Assembly (NCBI RefSeq): GCF_000236685.1
Contig: NC_016633.1
Coordinates: 2,914,001-2,978,000 of the forward strand
Direction of reading: 5' to 3'
Length of the DNA: 64,000 bases
Source of the DNA: Sphaerochaeta pleomorpha str. Grapes
GTDB lineage: Bacteria; Spirochaetota; Spirochaetia; Sphaerochaetales; Sphaerochaetaceae
This document shows positions 25,171 to 31,528 of the stretch, piece after piece. How positions within the stretch are numbered: position 1 is the stretch's first letter; every line of letters begins with the position of its first letter. The translations under genes and the position numbers were made by a program. Under the pieces are notes generated by a model. It had not been told where the DNA came from. It did no database searches and saw nothing but the letters and a program-made list of their open reading frames with translations.

Positions 25171-26268
25171 ATGTATTCTTCTGTTTTCCGAAAGGTTTTC
25201 CTGATATTTTCTATATTTCTCCTAGGATTAACTGAGGTATGGGCTTTTTCTTTCCAATGGGCGCCCCTTGATCCTTTGTTTCGAGAACCTCTTGCCGATC
25301 CCTTTGCCTGCTCAACCAGTTTTCGGTCCTTAGGTATGCTGGATGAAGAGAGTATCCCCGATTCTGTATTGGTTTCAAACGAAGCTACCAACCGTTATGA
25401 GAGTATCACTTATGATGATGCCAATCAGCGTGAATATTGGCAGATGAAAAGTGCCGTGAATATCGGTCTGCTTAGGGCTTCGCTGGGATTTATTGAGATG
25501 GAAGGGTATATTCAAGGTGGGCTGAACACTGTTTTCCAGAAAAATGGTTCGGTCAATGCCTTGGGGTTCGATGGTCTCTATGGAGCCGGGGCAACCATAA
25601 GGCTTTTCAATGTCCTTGCCCTCCAGGCGGGATTTCATCATTTTTCCGGCCATTGGGGAGATGAAATCATAGGGGATTTGCTTGAATACAATCCATCTCT
25701 GGATTTATATTCTTCCACTGCAACGTACCATTTGGAGGAATATACCAGAGGTAATTCCTGGATTGCAGGGGCTTCCTTGGACCAGGGCTCTTGGGGCCGT
25801 TTGTATTTCTTTGCCGAGCTTCCTATGGAAAGATCCTGGATCAGGCCGGGAATCCATGTACCGGCAGACACCCTTAAGCCAGGAAATAGCGATACTTCTC
25901 AGTTTGAGTATATTACCGGACAGGAAGGCCTCACGGGTTTGACCCCGTATGATTCTTCCTACAAGGCTTGGAGACTGCAATCAGGCTTGGAACTCTATAT
26001 TCCGGTTTCGACTATCGGCTCCTTGTTTTTGGCAGGGGATGTTCAGGCGCACCAAGATGGACAGACGCTCCATCAGGTCGGAGGCTATAATCCTTCCAAT
26101 CCCTGGGAATTCGAATATACAGTAGGTGGAGGTTTTGCCTTCAATAAGGATTTCATGGAAAGAACGTTTCGGTTTGAAATCTATTATCATGATGGAAGAT
26201 TCCCGCTCTTGAACTATTTTTTCCAGCGCAGCAAATATCTTGTTATGGGTATAGTAATCAGTGGTTAG
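25171..26268 (+). CDS. Secreted outer-membrane-type protein, first of a tandem pair
   Basis: 365 residues. A signal peptide (about 1-25, ending VWA) is followed by a chain with many alternating hydrophobic strands and aromatic-glycine endings, suggesting a beta-barrel in the outer membrane. About half of the C-terminal 130 residues match the next gene, including HQDGQTLHQVGGYNPSNPWEFEY and YYHDGRFPLLNYFFQR. The C-terminal element recalls DUF1207-type proteins, but I do not recognise the family with certainty. No strong Shine-Dalgarno site precedes this ATG. The gap to the second copy is 10 bp, so they are cotranscribed. Function unknown. Confidence 0.75.
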   Translation: MYSSVFRKVFLIFSIFLLGLTEVWAFSFQWAPLDPLFREPLADPFACSTSFRSLGMLDEESIPDSVLVSNEATNRYESITYDDANQREYWQMKSAVNIGLLRASLGFIEMEGYIQGGLNTVFQKNGSVNALGFDGLYGAGATIRLFNVLALQAGFHHFSGHWGDEIIGDLLEYNPSLDLYSSTATYHLEEYTRGNSWIAGASLDQGSWGRLYFFAELPMERSWIRPGIHVPADTLKPGNSDTSQFEYITGQEGLTGLTPYDSSYKAWRLQSGLELYIPVSTIGSLFLAGDVQAHQDGQTLHQVGGYNPSNPWEFEYTVGGGFAFNKDFMERTFRFEIYYHDGRFPLLNYFFQRSKYLVMGIVISG

Positions 26269-26278
26269 GAGTCTTTTT

Positions 26279-27349
26279 ATGAAACGAAAGGTTGTTTTTC
26301 TCTTTGTCCTTGTGTTTGCGGTTTCGTCCTGTTTTGCTTCCTACGATATGTTTGAAGATAATTTATCTTTCGATTGGTATGCGGCTGAGTCTCTGTTTCC
26401 CTCGTCTGCCCTCAATCCTTTTTCCTCGACTTCGACGCTGAATATCCTCCATCTTATCGAAGGGCAGCCTAGGTCGATTCTCTATACCGATAATGGAGAG
26501 TACACATCGGTACCTTTCTATTCAGGTACGAGCTATGCTGATGAAACGCTGTATGCCCAGCTGAAAACAGGGGTTAATATTGGTCTTTTACGGCTTTCGT
26601 TTTTTGATATGGTGGAATCGGAAGTAGGATTCCAAGGAGCCTTGAATTCTGTATTCCAAGGATTCGGAGGAGCTAAAAACCTTGGTTTCGATGGAATTTT
26701 CTTTTTCGGTTTGCATGTGAGGTTTTTCAATACAGTGACGTTCCGAACAGGGTACCAGCATTACAGCGGCCATTACGGGGATGAAACGCTCTTAAATATT
26801 ACAGGGCAAACCGAGGATCCCGTAGAGTATGTCAGGGATAATGATATTCTGTTTGGGGTTTCGGTTCAGCCGGTTTCTTTCCTTCGTCTCTATGCTGATG
26901 CAAACCTTCCTTTGCCCAAGACATGGATGGCTCCTGCCATCCATATTCCTTTCTGGGTACTCAAGCCTTCTTCTGGGGAGTCTTTGCTTGAGGTTGAATC
27001 AGGGAAAGAAGGAATTGCTGTCACTGAATTTGCAGATTCCTATAAAGCGTGGATCATCGATTTTGGAATGGAGGTTCGCCTTCCTGTCCGTAATCTTGGA
27101 TCCTTGCTTCTTGGCGCCGATGTCGTTGCCAACCAAGATGGACAGACACTTCATCAAGTCGGAGGCTATGATGAAGACAATCCCTGGGAATTTGAATATA
27201 CCCTCGGTGCAGGTCTTGAGTTCGACCAGAGTATTGGCCTGGGGGCTACCAGACTTATGCTCTGCTATCATGATGGGAGATTCCCTTTGCTAAATTTCTT
27301 TTATCAACGGACGAAATACCTTTCCGTCGGCTTTTCAATCAGCCAGTAG
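26279..27349 (+). CDS. Secreted outer-membrane-type protein, second of a tandem pair
   Basis: 356 residues, paralogue of the preceding protein along its whole length: signal peptide to about residue 20, then matching blocks such as VNIGLLRLSF, ALNSVFQ, LGFDGIFFFG, HYSGHYGDE, NQDGQTLHQVGGYDEDNPWEFEY and CYHDGRFPLLNFFYQR. The aromatic C-terminus GFSISQ is barrel-like. The ATG at 26279 has GGAG 7 bp upstream and is preferred to the frame start at 26261, which would overlap the first gene. Likely an outer-membrane protein working with its sister; role unknown. Confidence 0.75.
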   Translation: MKRKVVFLFVLVFAVSSCFASYDMFEDNLSFDWYAAESLFPSSALNPFSSTSTLNILHLIEGQPRSILYTDNGEYTSVPFYSGTSYADETLYAQLKTGVNIGLLRLSFFDMVESEVGFQGALNSVFQGFGGAKNLGFDGIFFFGLHVRFFNTVTFRTGYQHYSGHYGDETLLNITGQTEDPVEYVRDNDILFGVSVQPVSFLRLYADANLPLPKTWMAPAIHIPFWVLKPSSGESLLEVESGKEGIAVTEFADSYKAWIIDFGMEVRLPVRNLGSLLLGADVVANQDGQTLHQVGGYDEDNPWEFEYTLGAGLEFDQSIGLGATRLMLCYHDGRFPLLNFFYQRTKYLSVGFSISQ

Positions 27350-27582: not shown

Positions 27583-27655
27583 GCCGCTTTAGCTCAGTTG
27601 GTAGAGCAAAGGACTGAAAATCCTTGTGTCCTCAGTTCAATTCTGAGAGGCGGCA
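27583..27655 (+). tRNA. tRNA-Phe (GAA)
   Basis: 73 nt with a complete cloverleaf. The 7-bp acceptor stem GCCGCTT/AGGCGGC has one G-T pair. D-arm GCTCAGTTGGTAGAGC; anticodon stem AAGGA/TCCTT with loop CTGAAAA, anticodon GAA; T-loop TTCAATT. Discriminator A; CCA is not encoded. It has its own promoter and terminator and is the landmark for the accessory patch downstream. Confidence 0.96.
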
Positions 27656-27879: not shown

Positions 27880-28188
27880 ATGGAAATATGTGGCAGATTG
27901 AAGTTAATAAGAGAATGCTATGGGAAATCTCAGGCCAAGTTTTCTCGTAGACTTATAATGTCACAGAATACGTGGGGACAAGATAAGATAGCAAAACACT
28001 CAGTGCCCATTGAATTCAAACAAAACCTTACTGTTATGGGTATCAATATTTATTGGTTGGTTACTGGCAATGGTCCGATGTACCTGTCCGAAGAATCTAT
28101 AAAACAAGAAACTGGAAAAAACAGGATAGTCTATGACCGTTCAGAATTATTTAATATCCGAATCAATGCTGGAACACTCTCTTCATGA
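27880..28188 (+). CDS. Small phage-type repressor-like HTH protein
   Basis: 102 residues. The first 75 match the N-terminal helix-turn-helix region of CI/XRE-like regulators: CGRLKLIRECYGKSQAKFSRRL, then MSQNTWGQ, and the typical ending NIYWLVTGNGPMYL. There is no C-terminal peptidase or sensory domain. The turn after the recognition helix reads DKIAKHS where YERGKHS is usual, so it may be a decayed copy. The Shine-Dalgarno is weak. It lies first in the patch after tRNA-Phe and could control the two genes downstream, which are flanked by matching inverted repeats. Confidence 0.65.
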   Translation: MEICGRLKLIRECYGKSQAKFSRRLIMSQNTWGQDKIAKHSVPIEFKQNLTVMGINIYWLVTGNGPMYLSEESIKQETGKNRIVYDRSELFNIRINAGTLSS

Positions 28189-28248
28189 TGCATCTCATCA
28201 CAAGAGCCTGGGAAAGGTAATCGGCAGGTTCATGATGTATTGGTAGAA

Positions 28249-28264
28249 ACACCCCTGAGGGTGT
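28249..28264. repeat. Inverted repeat upstream of the GIY-YIG gene
   Basis: ACACCC-CTGA-GGGTGT, 64 bp before the ATG of the GIY-YIG protein. Its counterpart at 30704-30719 has the same plan with compensating changes. Confidence 0.6.
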
Positions 28265-28327
28265 GCATATATTAAGTATGGTCTTTACTTATAGGGTGTG
28301 TGCTTCTGTGTGACCGGGGTTAAATGA

Positions 28328-29908
28328 ATGTCGCTCGAATTTTTATTCTTCGCTTTTATTGAGATTGTTACGTTTGTATTGATCTATTTTTTGATGCGTA
28401 CTAAAGAAAAGCTCTCAGAGAGTAATTCAAAGTATGCTGCTCTAAAAAAGCAGTATGAGCAATTCATTAGTGTCGATGAATATAAAGCTTCTATAGAACA
28501 GGAACTTTTACGTATTCAGAAGGAAAGCCAAGATCACCTTGAGTCTAACCGTCAAGAAATTGCACAACTCAAGAAGGAAAGTGAAGATCAACTATCTACG
28601 AATAGAACAAAGCTTGTACAAGAAACACAACGTCTATTTGATGAAAGGAACAAAACACTCTCAGACATTGAGAACCAGAAGAATGAAAGCATCCATTCCA
28701 AAGAGCAGCGAATATCCACTTTAAATCAAGAAATGGATGAGCTGTCCACTAAGTACAATCAAGCGAGAACATTGCTTTCCAGCCTTTTGAAAGAGGTTTC
28801 ATTGTTCCAAGATGAAGTAGAAACAAATTCCTTTGGAATATATTCACCTCATTTTGAGTTCGATACTTCGGAGGAATATAAAGATAAACTGATTGAGATC
28901 CGAAAGGAATCTAAAGTTCTAATATCTTCAGGCGATGCTGTTGATGCCAATTTTGGGTGGACTGTAAATGGGAGCAAGGCTGAAGGGAAAAAACAGACAA
29001 ACCAATATATAAAACTGATGCTCAGGGCTTTCAACGGTGAATGCGAAGCAATGGTTGCTGATACTCGTTGGAACAATATCACCAAAATGGAAGAAAGGAT
29101 GAAGAGTGTCTATGAAGCAATCAACAAACTTGGGACCGTTCATGAGATTTCAATCCGTTCTCAGTATTTGACCCTTAAGCTTCAGGAGCTTCAATTAACT
29201 TTTGAATATGAAAACAAGAAACATGAAGAGCAAGAAGAGCAACGTAAACTGCGTGATCAGATAAGAGAAGAAGAAAAGGCTCAGCGTGAATATGAAAAGG
29301 CGATGAAGGATGCTGCAGATGAGCAAAAACAATACCAGCAAGCTCTTAATCAAGCAAGGAAAGAAATGGAAAAGGCCCAAGGAGAAGAACTGACAAAGCT
29401 TCAGAAAAATATTGCAGACCTTGCGGAAAAGCTTGAAGAAGCCCAAAATCAGCAGCAACGAGCAATTTCAATGGCCCAACAAACCAAGGCTGGCAATGTC
29501 TACGTCATTTCAAATGTGGGGTCATTTGGTGAGAATGTTTATAAAATTGGTATGACTCGTAGACTTAACCCACAAGAAAGAGTGAACGAACTTGGTGATG
29601 CCTCCGTCCCATTTACCTTTGATGTCCATGCGATGATCAGGTCAGACAATGCTCCTGAGTTAGAATCTTATTTCCATAATCAACTAGATAAGAAGCGGTT
29701 GAATCTCATTAATACCCGTAAAGAGTTTTTTACAGTAACGCTTCGTGAAATCGAAGAGCTTACAAAACGAAGAGGAATGACGATTGAGTTCACCAAATTG
29801 GCTGAAGCAAGAGAATTTAGGGAATCCATTGAGAAGAGAAAAGAATTCGGAGCCCCTAAGTCAGAGCCAGTGAAAAATGATTTAGATAAGTTTCCAGTGA
29901 ATTTGTAA
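28328..29908 (+). CDS. Membrane-anchored coiled-coil protein with DUF4041 and a GIY-YIG (T5orf172) nuclease domain
   Basis: 526 residues. Residues 4-24 form one membrane helix (FLFFAFIEIVTFVLIYFLM). A long charged coiled coil runs to about 165. A DUF4041-like region follows, about 185-300, with SGDAVDANFGWTVNGSKAEGK shortened here as SGDAVDANFGW. A second coiled coil spans about 300-385. The C-terminal T5orf172/MUG113 domain of the GIY-YIG superfamily is at about 388-470: GNVYVIS, VYKIGMTRR, ERVNELG, Glu in PELESYFH. The catalytic Tyr, Arg and Glu candidates are all present. This architecture occurs in bacterial accessory regions and phages; a DNA-cutting defence role is plausible but unproven. 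Followed after 13 bp by a DUF4145 gene. Confidence 0.8.
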   Translation: MSLEFLFFAFIEIVTFVLIYFLMRTKEKLSESNSKYAALKKQYEQFISVDEYKASIEQELLRIQKESQDHLESNRQEIAQLKKESEDQLSTNRTKLVQETQRLFDERNKTLSDIENQKNESIHSKEQRISTLNQEMDELSTKYNQARTLLSSLLKEVSLFQDEVETNSFGIYSPHFEFDTSEEYKDKLIEIRKESKVLISSGDAVDANFGWTVNGSKAEGKKQTNQYIKLMLRAFNGECEAMVADTRWNNITKMEERMKSVYEAINKLGTVHEISIRSQYLTLKLQELQLTFEYENKKHEEQEEQRKLRDQIREEEKAQREYEKAMKDAADEQKQYQQALNQARKEMEKAQGEELTKLQKNIADLAEKLEEAQNQQQRAISMAQQTKAGNVYVISNVGSFGENVYKIGMTRRLNPQERVNELGDASVPFTFDVHAMIRSDNAPELESYFHNQLDKKRLNLINTRKEFFTVTLREIEELTKRRGMTIEFTKLAEAREFRESIEKRKEFGAPKSEPVKNDLDKFPVNL

Positions 29909-29921
29909 TCAGGAGTAGACA

Positions 29922-30665
29922 ATGGGAATAGACATCAAAAAATTCATTCTGGAAGTTACAGAAAAGAAACAGTTCTGGGAATGCCCATTTTGCAAGAAGC
30001 ATATACAGCTGGTAAAAGAGAATCTTAGTACCATTAGAATGGATGCTGGAAATGGGAATATCACCTATGTATTAGGCATTCTATGTCCAAATCCAAATTG
30101 TAAGAAAACTTCGGTGTATCTAGCAGCATACACAGGGTTATATGAAGGACCACATTTTGTAAATCCGGATACGGAGAAACCGCCTATCGGACGATTTGAA
30201 ACATTGTTCCCTCATGGCACTTATATCAACTATCCTTCGTATATTCCAGAGTCAATAAGAAACGATTATATGGAAGCTGCATGCATAGTTGATTTAAGCC
30301 CAAAAGCCTCTGCTGCGCTTATCAGGCGTGCTTTACAAGGAATGATAAAAGATAAGAAACCTCAGCTTAAAAATCTAAAATTGGAGAAGCAGATTGAATC
30401 GCTTAGAACTGAAGTATCAAGGCAAGAATATGCGGCACTAACGGCAATACGAAAGATTGGTAATGTAGGAGCTCATATGGAGGATCCTGGTGTAATAGCA
30501 GAACAGGATTGTCCTATAAATTCAATTGATGCCACTGATTTAGTGCATCTAATCGAATACTTGTTGAAGAGTTGGTATGTGGATATACATGATGCTGATT
30601 TCTTGATGAACAGTATTTCTAAACGAGGAGAAGAAATTCATGATATCCAAAAAGGAAGAAGGTAA
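29922..30665 (+). CDS. DUF4145 protein with an N-terminal zinc ribbon
   Basis: 247 residues. Two cysteine pairs, CPFC near residue 20 and CPNPNC near residue 55, form a probable zinc ribbon. The DUF4145 core follows: EAACIVDLSPKASAALIRRALQG, then IRKIGNVGAHMEDPG. The domain is often found as a free protein or fused in restriction and other defence-linked genes; its biochemical role is not known. AGGAG lies 7 bp before the ATG. The 13-bp gap from the GIY-YIG gene implies a two-gene operon and a joint function. Confidence 0.85.
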   Translation: MGIDIKKFILEVTEKKQFWECPFCKKHIQLVKENLSTIRMDAGNGNITYVLGILCPNPNCKKTSVYLAAYTGLYEGPHFVNPDTEKPPIGRFETLFPHGTYINYPSYIPESIRNDYMEAACIVDLSPKASAALIRRALQGMIKDKKPQLKNLKLEKQIESLRTEVSRQEYAALTAIRKIGNVGAHMEDPGVIAEQDCPINSIDATDLVHLIEYLLKSWYVDIHDADFLMNSISKRGEEIHDIQKGRR

Positions 30666-30845: not shown

Positions 30846-30992
30846 TTAAAAGAGATTTCCAGACTTCGTAATGGAAATGATGTGAAATGGGCCTTGTGCA
30901 AGTTCAAAAGATTCCGAGGTCGTCCTTTAAGAAGGGTTCCTGACCTATTTACACATTGGAGATACTGTGGTTTCTTGATAAGAGCTGTATGA
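30846..30992 (+). pseudogene. C-terminal remnant of a group II intron reverse transcriptase
   Basis: The frame 30846-30992 reads LKEISRLRNGNDVKWALCKF, then KRFRGRPLRRVPDLFTHWRY and ends RAV before TGA. The KFKRFRGRPLRR...LFTHW block matches the usual end of intron-encoded maturases (K-Y-K-x-L-R-R ... L-F-A-H-W). The catalytic part is gone, and upstream sequence continues only in other frames. It runs directly into intron domain V, as in intact elements. Confidence 0.7.
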
Positions 30993-31053
30993 ATCGAGAG
31001 ATTCACGTACGGTTCTGTGAGAGCCTTGGGGTGAAACTCCCTTTGGCTACTCG
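30982..31053 (+). ncRNA. Group II intron domains V and VI (3' end remnant)
   Basis: GAGCTGTATG ... GTACGGTTC (30982-31015) folds as the 34-nt domain V hairpin typical of bacterial group II introns. AGCC-tt-GGGG-tgaaa-CTCC-ctt-GGCT (31022-31049) is a domain VI-like hairpin with a bulged A region. The intron 5' half is absent, so splicing is impossible. The exact 3' boundary, near 31053, is approximate. Confidence 0.75.
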
Positions 31054-31177
31054 ATTTGCAGCTCTGTTAAACGGTCAGTAAACGGTTACGCATTGAAGAA
31101 CCCGGCTTTTCTGAACCGTCCTATTGATATCCATGGCAATATAATGGATAGAAACCAACAGGAGGGTTTGTTAAACT

Positions 31178-31528
31178 ATGAAGGAACTTCGCAAAGACTA
31201 TGAGAGCTTGCCTGAGGATGTATCTCCTGAACAGGTTGAAACTACTGCCGCGGCCCTGGAAAGAAGGAAGTTTTCACCTGTCCTGATTCTTGATGTACCG
31301 AATTTCAACAGACTGACCAAGCAAGATATGCTCAATGAATACGACCGGGTACAGGCACTGCCTTCTACCTCCCGGGAATTGAAGATGGTACTCGCCATAG
31401 AGAATCCCGAGCAAGTGAAAGAAAAACATCTGGTCTTGTTGTTGAACCAGTATCTTCTCCTCTGTGGATTAAGGAAAAATGAAGCTTCCGCTTGGGATGT
31501 TATCAATGAAATGTATGAGGATGACTAG
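31178..31528 (+). CDS. Conserved-looking hypothetical protein
   Basis: 116 residues, not recognised. Charged, mostly helical by composition, with no signal peptide or membrane segment. It ends in an acidic tail (NEMYEDD). GGAGGG lies 11 bp before the ATG, slightly far but clear. The codon pattern looks native rather than like the adjacent intron debris. It stands alone between the intron remnant and a convergent acyltransferase gene. Confidence 0.6.
   Translation: MKELRKDYESLPEDVSPEQVETTAAALERRKFSPVLILDVPNFNRLTKQDMLNEYDRVQALPSTSRELKMVLAIENPEQVKEKHLVLLLNQYLLLCGLRKNEASAWDVINEMYEDD

Follow-up and report, generated by a model that had tools for sequence, protein, structure and literature searches.

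A SNIPE/PD-Lambda-1 homologue and a zinc-ribbon DUF4145 gene in a variable tRNA-Phe-linked slot of Sphaerochaeta pleomorpha

Do the genes clustered beside a tRNA-Phe gene of Sphaerochaeta pleomorpha form a defence unit of their own, or do they represent a known defence gene accompanied by independent cargo? The window analyzed here, a stretch of 64,000 nucleotides spanning positions 2,914,001-2,978,000 of the 3.59-Mb single-contig genome, contains a compact block (27880-30665) in which the first-pass annotation, made from the DNA letters, had seen a candidate defence cassette next to a tRNA. ARAGORN, Rfam and Pfam placed all of the elements concerned, tRNA-Phe, a helix-turn-helix (HTH) gene, a DUF4041/GIY-YIG gene and a zinc-ribbon DUF4145 gene, where that annotation had put them. 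The G+C content of the block, 38.4% vs 45.6% for the window, ranks 10th lowest of 307 sliding windows. The reading which we consider very probable is that of an additional SNIPE member accompanied by independent cargo, together making up a small, horizontally acquired insertion in a tRNA-Phe-linked defence hotspot.

The SNIPE/PD-Lambda-1 homologue

The large gene of the block (28328-29908, forward strand) encodes a 526-aa protein in which an N-terminal membrane helix is followed by a coiled coil, DUF4041 and a GIY-YIG nuclease domain. The PADLOC model for PD-Lambda-1 matches residues 5-507 over profile positions 5-476 of 491 (548.5 bits), and two Pfam assignments lie far over their cut-offs: DUF4041 (PF13250; residues 229-284, 82.9 bits) and a GIY-YIG domain of the T5orf172/MUG113 type (residues 390-480, 60.8 and 64.6 bits). 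The protein also matches phage family phrog_1847 in PHROG. Its hydropathy peaks at 2.54 over a 19-residue hydrophobic segment (residues 5-23) followed by RTKEK, and this segment together with the positive charges fits a predicted N-out/C-in topology. The AlphaFold model (mean pLDDT 84, pTM 0.49) shows an N-terminal helix, long coiled-coil helices, a mixed domain at residues 181-276 and a C-terminal alpha/beta nuclease in which Y392, R411 and E446, the GIY-YIG residues, are invariant in an alignment of 41 homologues. The hydrophobic segment, the modelled coiled coil and the Pfam domains bear out the original description of a membrane-anchored coiled-coil/DUF4041/GIY-YIG protein.

PD-Lambda-1 was first found through a functional selection in E. 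coli (Vassallo et al. 2022; PMC9519451) and has been renamed SNIPE (Saxton et al., Nature 2026; PMC13190303). The E. coli protein is a nuclease anchored in the membrane, where it cleaves phage DNA that is being injected; its DUF4041 is required for DNA binding and probably also for contact with the tape-measure protein, and most SNIPE homologues have a single transmembrane segment in an N-terminal membrane-targeting region (PMC13190303). The window protein shares with it the single N-terminal membrane helix, the coiled coil, DUF4041 and the C-terminal GIY-YIG domain, and phage-borne homologues are known for the SNIPE family as they are for the window protein. A protein annotated PD-lambda-1 in phage PhiR26_1 (L013), 44% identical to the window protein, retains each of the nine E. 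coli SNIPE residues that were mutated in the published work (E223, N250, L253, W257, E264, K305, I308, T319 and E414) and was therefore taken as SNIPE; through it, the catalytic E414 (E. coli SNIPE numbering) aligns with E446 of the window protein. Identity to L013 rises from just 22% in the N-terminal adapter region through 47% in DUF4041 and 53% in the linker to 72% in the GIY-YIG domain, a gradient that agrees with the one reported across the SNIPE family (PMC13190303). Judged by its sequence, the large protein is a full-length SNIPE/PD-Lambda-1 homologue and an added member of an already known family.

The gene for a generic coiled-coil GIY-YIG protein, active in DNA repair or homing and unrelated to defence, might look similar at first sight, as GIY-YIG domains and coiled coils are common and the 526-aa protein gives weak SMC-like NCBIfam matches. 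A Foldseek search with the model yielded only chance coiled-coil matches and a weak resemblance to Slx1, a GIY-YIG nuclease, and so goes no further than the sequence evidence. The match to both PD-Lambda-1 and L013 runs over the full length, DUF4041 and the membrane helix included, and we give the generic reading next to no credence.

Carried over from E. coli SNIPE, for which the steps have been shown, to the window protein on the strength of homology and conserved residues, the mechanism would be as follows. The single N-terminal helix would anchor the protein in the inner membrane, with the long coiled coil and DUF4041 facing the cytoplasm and binding incoming DNA; the protein would probably also contact the phage tape-measure protein or the phage entry machinery. 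The GIY-YIG domain would then cut phage DNA during injection, the chromosome being spared through the membrane tethering of the nuclease. The proposal that a nuclease held at the membrane cuts DNA on entry, put forward before any database had been searched, fits this published mechanism (PMC13190303), and homology points to both the membrane location and the cutting at entry for the window protein. We note that two PD-Lambda-1 proteins of S. thermophilus, 98.5% identical, are unequal in activity (PMC12322248), so that the function of the window protein cannot be assumed.

Unlike E. coli SNIPE, the window protein belongs to a spirochaete, its gene is directly followed by a DUF4145 gene, and several specificity-tuning positions in DUF4041 and the linker are changed, W257 and E264 of SNIPE corresponding to Q289 and N296. 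Given these changes and the divergent adapter, another phage or host-protein target is to be expected. With its nuclease intact and its N-terminal adapter so unlike that of E. coli SNIPE, this spirochaete member of the family would be of use in asking whether the adapter determines phage specificity.

Relatives of the protein were found according to the search used: a viral scan with the single sequence returned 0 and an alignment-based scan 466, while PF13250 alone, a model too short for sensitivity, matched 2 of 393 genomes across the phylum. The best plasmid matches were to Leptospira plasmids. Larger SNIPE-like proteins (~670-710 aa) with a long N-terminal extension occur in five genomes (L005-L009, in G002, G014, G029, G026 and G005, respectively); the two that were scanned, L005 and L009, match PD-Lambda-1 with ~260 bits and have no Pfam DUF4041 match.

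The repressor fragment, the intron scar and a possible prophage origin

The gene preceding the SNIPE homologue (27880-28188, forward strand) encodes a 102-aa protein that consists of a CI-like repressor N-terminal HTH without the S24 peptidase domain. Its matches to HTH_19 (20 bits) and Phage_CI_repr (14 bits) are both under the Pfam cut-off, and over 71 aa it shares 41% identity with the N-terminus of an S24 repressor of 254 aa in another spirochaete genome (G412). The phage-type repressor-like gene announced at this place is thus present as a CI-like HTH, though reduced to the N-terminal domain; by homology, it is what remains of a phage repressor that has lost its C-terminal half. The 140-bp gap between it and the SNIPE gene holds no remnant of a peptidase domain, folds no better than shuffled sequences (z -0.40) and has promoter and terminator counts at chance level.

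SNIPE genes are found in prophages such as PhiR26_1 and EJ-1, the latter with the order cI, DUF4041 gene, ORF2, integrase. Of the best 80 of the 466 SNIPE relatives in IMG/VR, 36 have a CI-like or repressor-like gene at a distance of at most 5 kb, as do 26 of the best 80 DUF4145 loci in the same resource, near-identical copies being present in both sets. When the repressor motif of the window HTH was searched for as a pattern, no other case adjacent to SNIPE turned up. In one spirochaete of the same family (G323), the counterpart of the window HTH is the S24 repressor of a Mu-like prophage (L277; G323:C1:20000-36000), which lies directly upstream of a zinc-ribbon DUF4145 gene; the same order recurs in G412. 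Unlike the window, L277 has a full-length repressor and no SNIPE gene, and its DUF4145 protein is distantly related to that of the window (68 bits with A1, no PADLOC match). A gene for a ClpP-like SDH protease also follows the repressor in L277.

The simplest reading of the gene order is that it resembles a decayed prophage immunity region with two accessory genes as cargo. Since the block lacks an integrase and a search for a repeated tRNA 3' end (att) returned nothing, a prophage origin is circumstantial. Past the DUF4145 gene lies the 3' remnant of a group II intron (30860-31055, forward strand), made up of a possible reverse transcriptase C-terminal coding fragment and of domain V/VI (30980-31055; Rfam RF00029, Intron_gpII, 60 bits, E 2.8e-9). 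One frame upstream of domain V/VI reads KFKRFRGRP...FTHW, which by eye resembles the way in which group II reverse transcriptases end; this peptide has no Pfam match, and no further copy of the intron was found in the genome. The element is a scar, as the first reading of the DNA had it.

The truncated repressor, the neighbouring intron remnant and the missing integrase, together with the prophage-borne SNIPE genes and the repressors near viral SNIPE loci, would also suit a degenerate prophage remnant whose genes are no longer defensive, SNIPE being the superinfection-exclusion gene of a lost phage. The SNIPE and DUF4145 frames are nevertheless intact, and the catalytic residues and zinc ligands that are invariant among their relatives have been retained, a point in favour of continued function; we regard loss of the defensive role as unlikely and retain the reading of a SNIPE member with independent cargo.

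The DUF4145 gene and its proposed pairing with SNIPE

The gene downstream of SNIPE (29922-30665, forward strand) encodes a 247-aa protein with a zinc ribbon and a DUF4145 domain of the HEPN clan (Pfam, 47 bits). The protein matches the PADLOC PD-T7-4 model (E 2.3e-16, profile positions 4-176 of 211), as do all 44 DUF4145 relatives in our alignment. It has in common with the PD-T7-4 family (PADLOC PDLC04109) the CxxC...CPNPxC zinc ribbon, a DUF4145 with R..GN..AH and standalone phage-borne relatives (phrog_1305), although its score of 57.9 bits is modest. Cysteines 21, 24, 55 and 60 are invariant in the 44 sequences, as are G180, N181 and H185, and R177 is kept in 43. According to a survey of HEPN proteins, DUF4145 is a branch of the superfamily in which the motif is mostly conserved (PMC3710099); the spacing between R177 and H185 is seven residues vs 4-6 in the classical motif (Rx4-6H), which makes RNase activity of the protein uncertain. 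The sole sensible fold matches, themselves weak, are to HepT-type toxins: Foldseek returned 7bxo and 5yep, the latter the HepT pair SO_3166-SO_3165, with probabilities of 0.90 and 0.75 and weak E-values of 0.2-0.5. A nucleic-acid-targeting role of the protein appears likely and an RNase role possible. A DUF4145 chain is present in PDB entry 9y9c.

The first-pass annotation had recommended that DUF4041-T5orf172 and DUF4145 be treated as a unit. Both genes lie on one strand, separated by 13 bp, and the DUF4145 gene has its own ribosome-binding site; the short gap suggests that they are probably co-transcribed, and a purely accidental pairing leaves it unexplained. Both families are in addition phage-borne, and the models they match take their names from systems of a single E. 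coli screen. One might therefore conceive of SNIPE and the zinc-ribbon DUF4145 protein as a lineage-specific two-component system: SNIPE would cut entering DNA, and the HEPN-type protein, once recruited or triggered via its zinc ribbon, would act on RNA as a second line or regulate SNIPE. Scanning the viral loci with family profiles over flanks of 5 kb returned no DUF4145 family member near any of the best 80 SNIPE loci and no SNIPE near any of the best 80 DUF4145 loci. Each profile matches 17 of 393 spirochaete genomes (E <= 1e-3), and S. pleomorpha (G000) is the one genome matched by both; as ~0.65 other shared genomes would be expected if the two were independent, this count alone is not strong, whereas the zero adjacency is. 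The pair was likewise absent from the plasmid and phage neighbourhoods examined, chromosomal neighbourhoods outside spirochaetes being barely sampled, and no recurrent downstream partner of SNIPE emerged from 40 non-redundant loci, in which the largest neighbour cluster had 2 members.

That no second instance occurs in 160 viral loci and 393 spirochaete genomes, that a single gene suffices for PD-Lambda-1 action (PMC13190303, PMC12322248) and that the neighbours of the DUF4145 family are varied all speak against a two-component system, which we hold to be improbable. The scenario in which SNIPE has recruited a co-transcribed zinc-ribbon HEPN-type partner, giving a defence of two layers, cleavage of DNA at the membrane and, should entry succeed, an attack on RNA of the phage or the host, strikes us as very improbable. 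On present evidence, the SNIPE-DUF4145 pair is not a system: the DUF4145 family is separate from SNIPE and behaves as a mobile passenger. In the reading of SNIPE plus cargo, the DUF4145 gene would be an independent PD-T7-4-like HEPN-clan module, travelling alone in phage repressor regions and type I restriction-modification operons. No new kind of system is shown, and the proposed pairing has been dropped from consideration; the lack of co-occurrence beyond this genome leaves the defence reading of the single genes untouched. Of the DUF4145 genes that could be placed in spirochaetes, two with zinc ribbons, in genomes G365 and G334, are enclosed in type I restriction-modification operons (hsdM, hsdS, hsdR; L262:77-9113 and L263:1146-12172), and the others are the repressor-linked genes of G323 and G412.

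The tRNA-Phe slot in the genus

The block sits in a slot bordered on the left by tRNA-Phe (GAA anticodon; 27583-27655, forward strand; ARAGORN and Rfam), which is orthologous in congeners, and on the right by a conserved 116-aa gene (31178-31528, forward strand) with orthologues in 14 of the 18 other same-genus genomes searched (48-70% identity). The 116-aa gene has no Pfam, PADLOC, NCBIfam or PHROG match; in congeners it is usually followed by a Crp-type regulator, and none lies next to the window copy.

Wherever both borders could be placed in congeners, tRNA-Phe lies upstream of the 116-aa gene at a variable distance: 268 bp in G007, 2.2-2.3 kb in G001, G017 and G003, 4.2 kb in G009, ~11 kb in G005 and G018, 17 kb in G002 and 40 kb in G012. 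The slot of G002 holds homologues of MzaB, C, D and E plus two restriction-modification genes, for a cytosine methyltransferase and a FokI-like nuclease, and those of G003 and G018 hold AbiLi-like ATPases. The varied lengths and contents are indicative of a variable site in which defence genes are often lodged; along with the PADLOC match to SNIPE, they agree with the initial view of a defence-type insertion beside a tRNA, and mark the interval between tRNA-Phe and the 116-aa gene as a place to seek defence genes in the genus. The gene order to the left of tRNA-Phe in S. pleomorpha is unlike that of its congeners, and the history of the slot is therefore not that of a simple insertion. A tandem pair of related genes for DUF1207-type proteins of 365 and 362 aa lies there at 25171-27349, where congeners have transporter genes.

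The six-gene set of G002 (L279; G002:C1:525000-537000) comprises the cytosine methyltransferase, the FokI-like nuclease, a MutL-type ATPase and Z1, DUF4420 and AIPR genes. AbiLi-like AAA ATPase genes were located in the slot region of three congeners (L249:4345-5898, L247:2593-4140 and L280:4828-5931), L249 and L280 having been scanned and L247 assigned by its sequence likeness to L249. In L249 and L247, a small ORF of ~141-143 aa accompanies the AbiLi-like gene on its downstream side.
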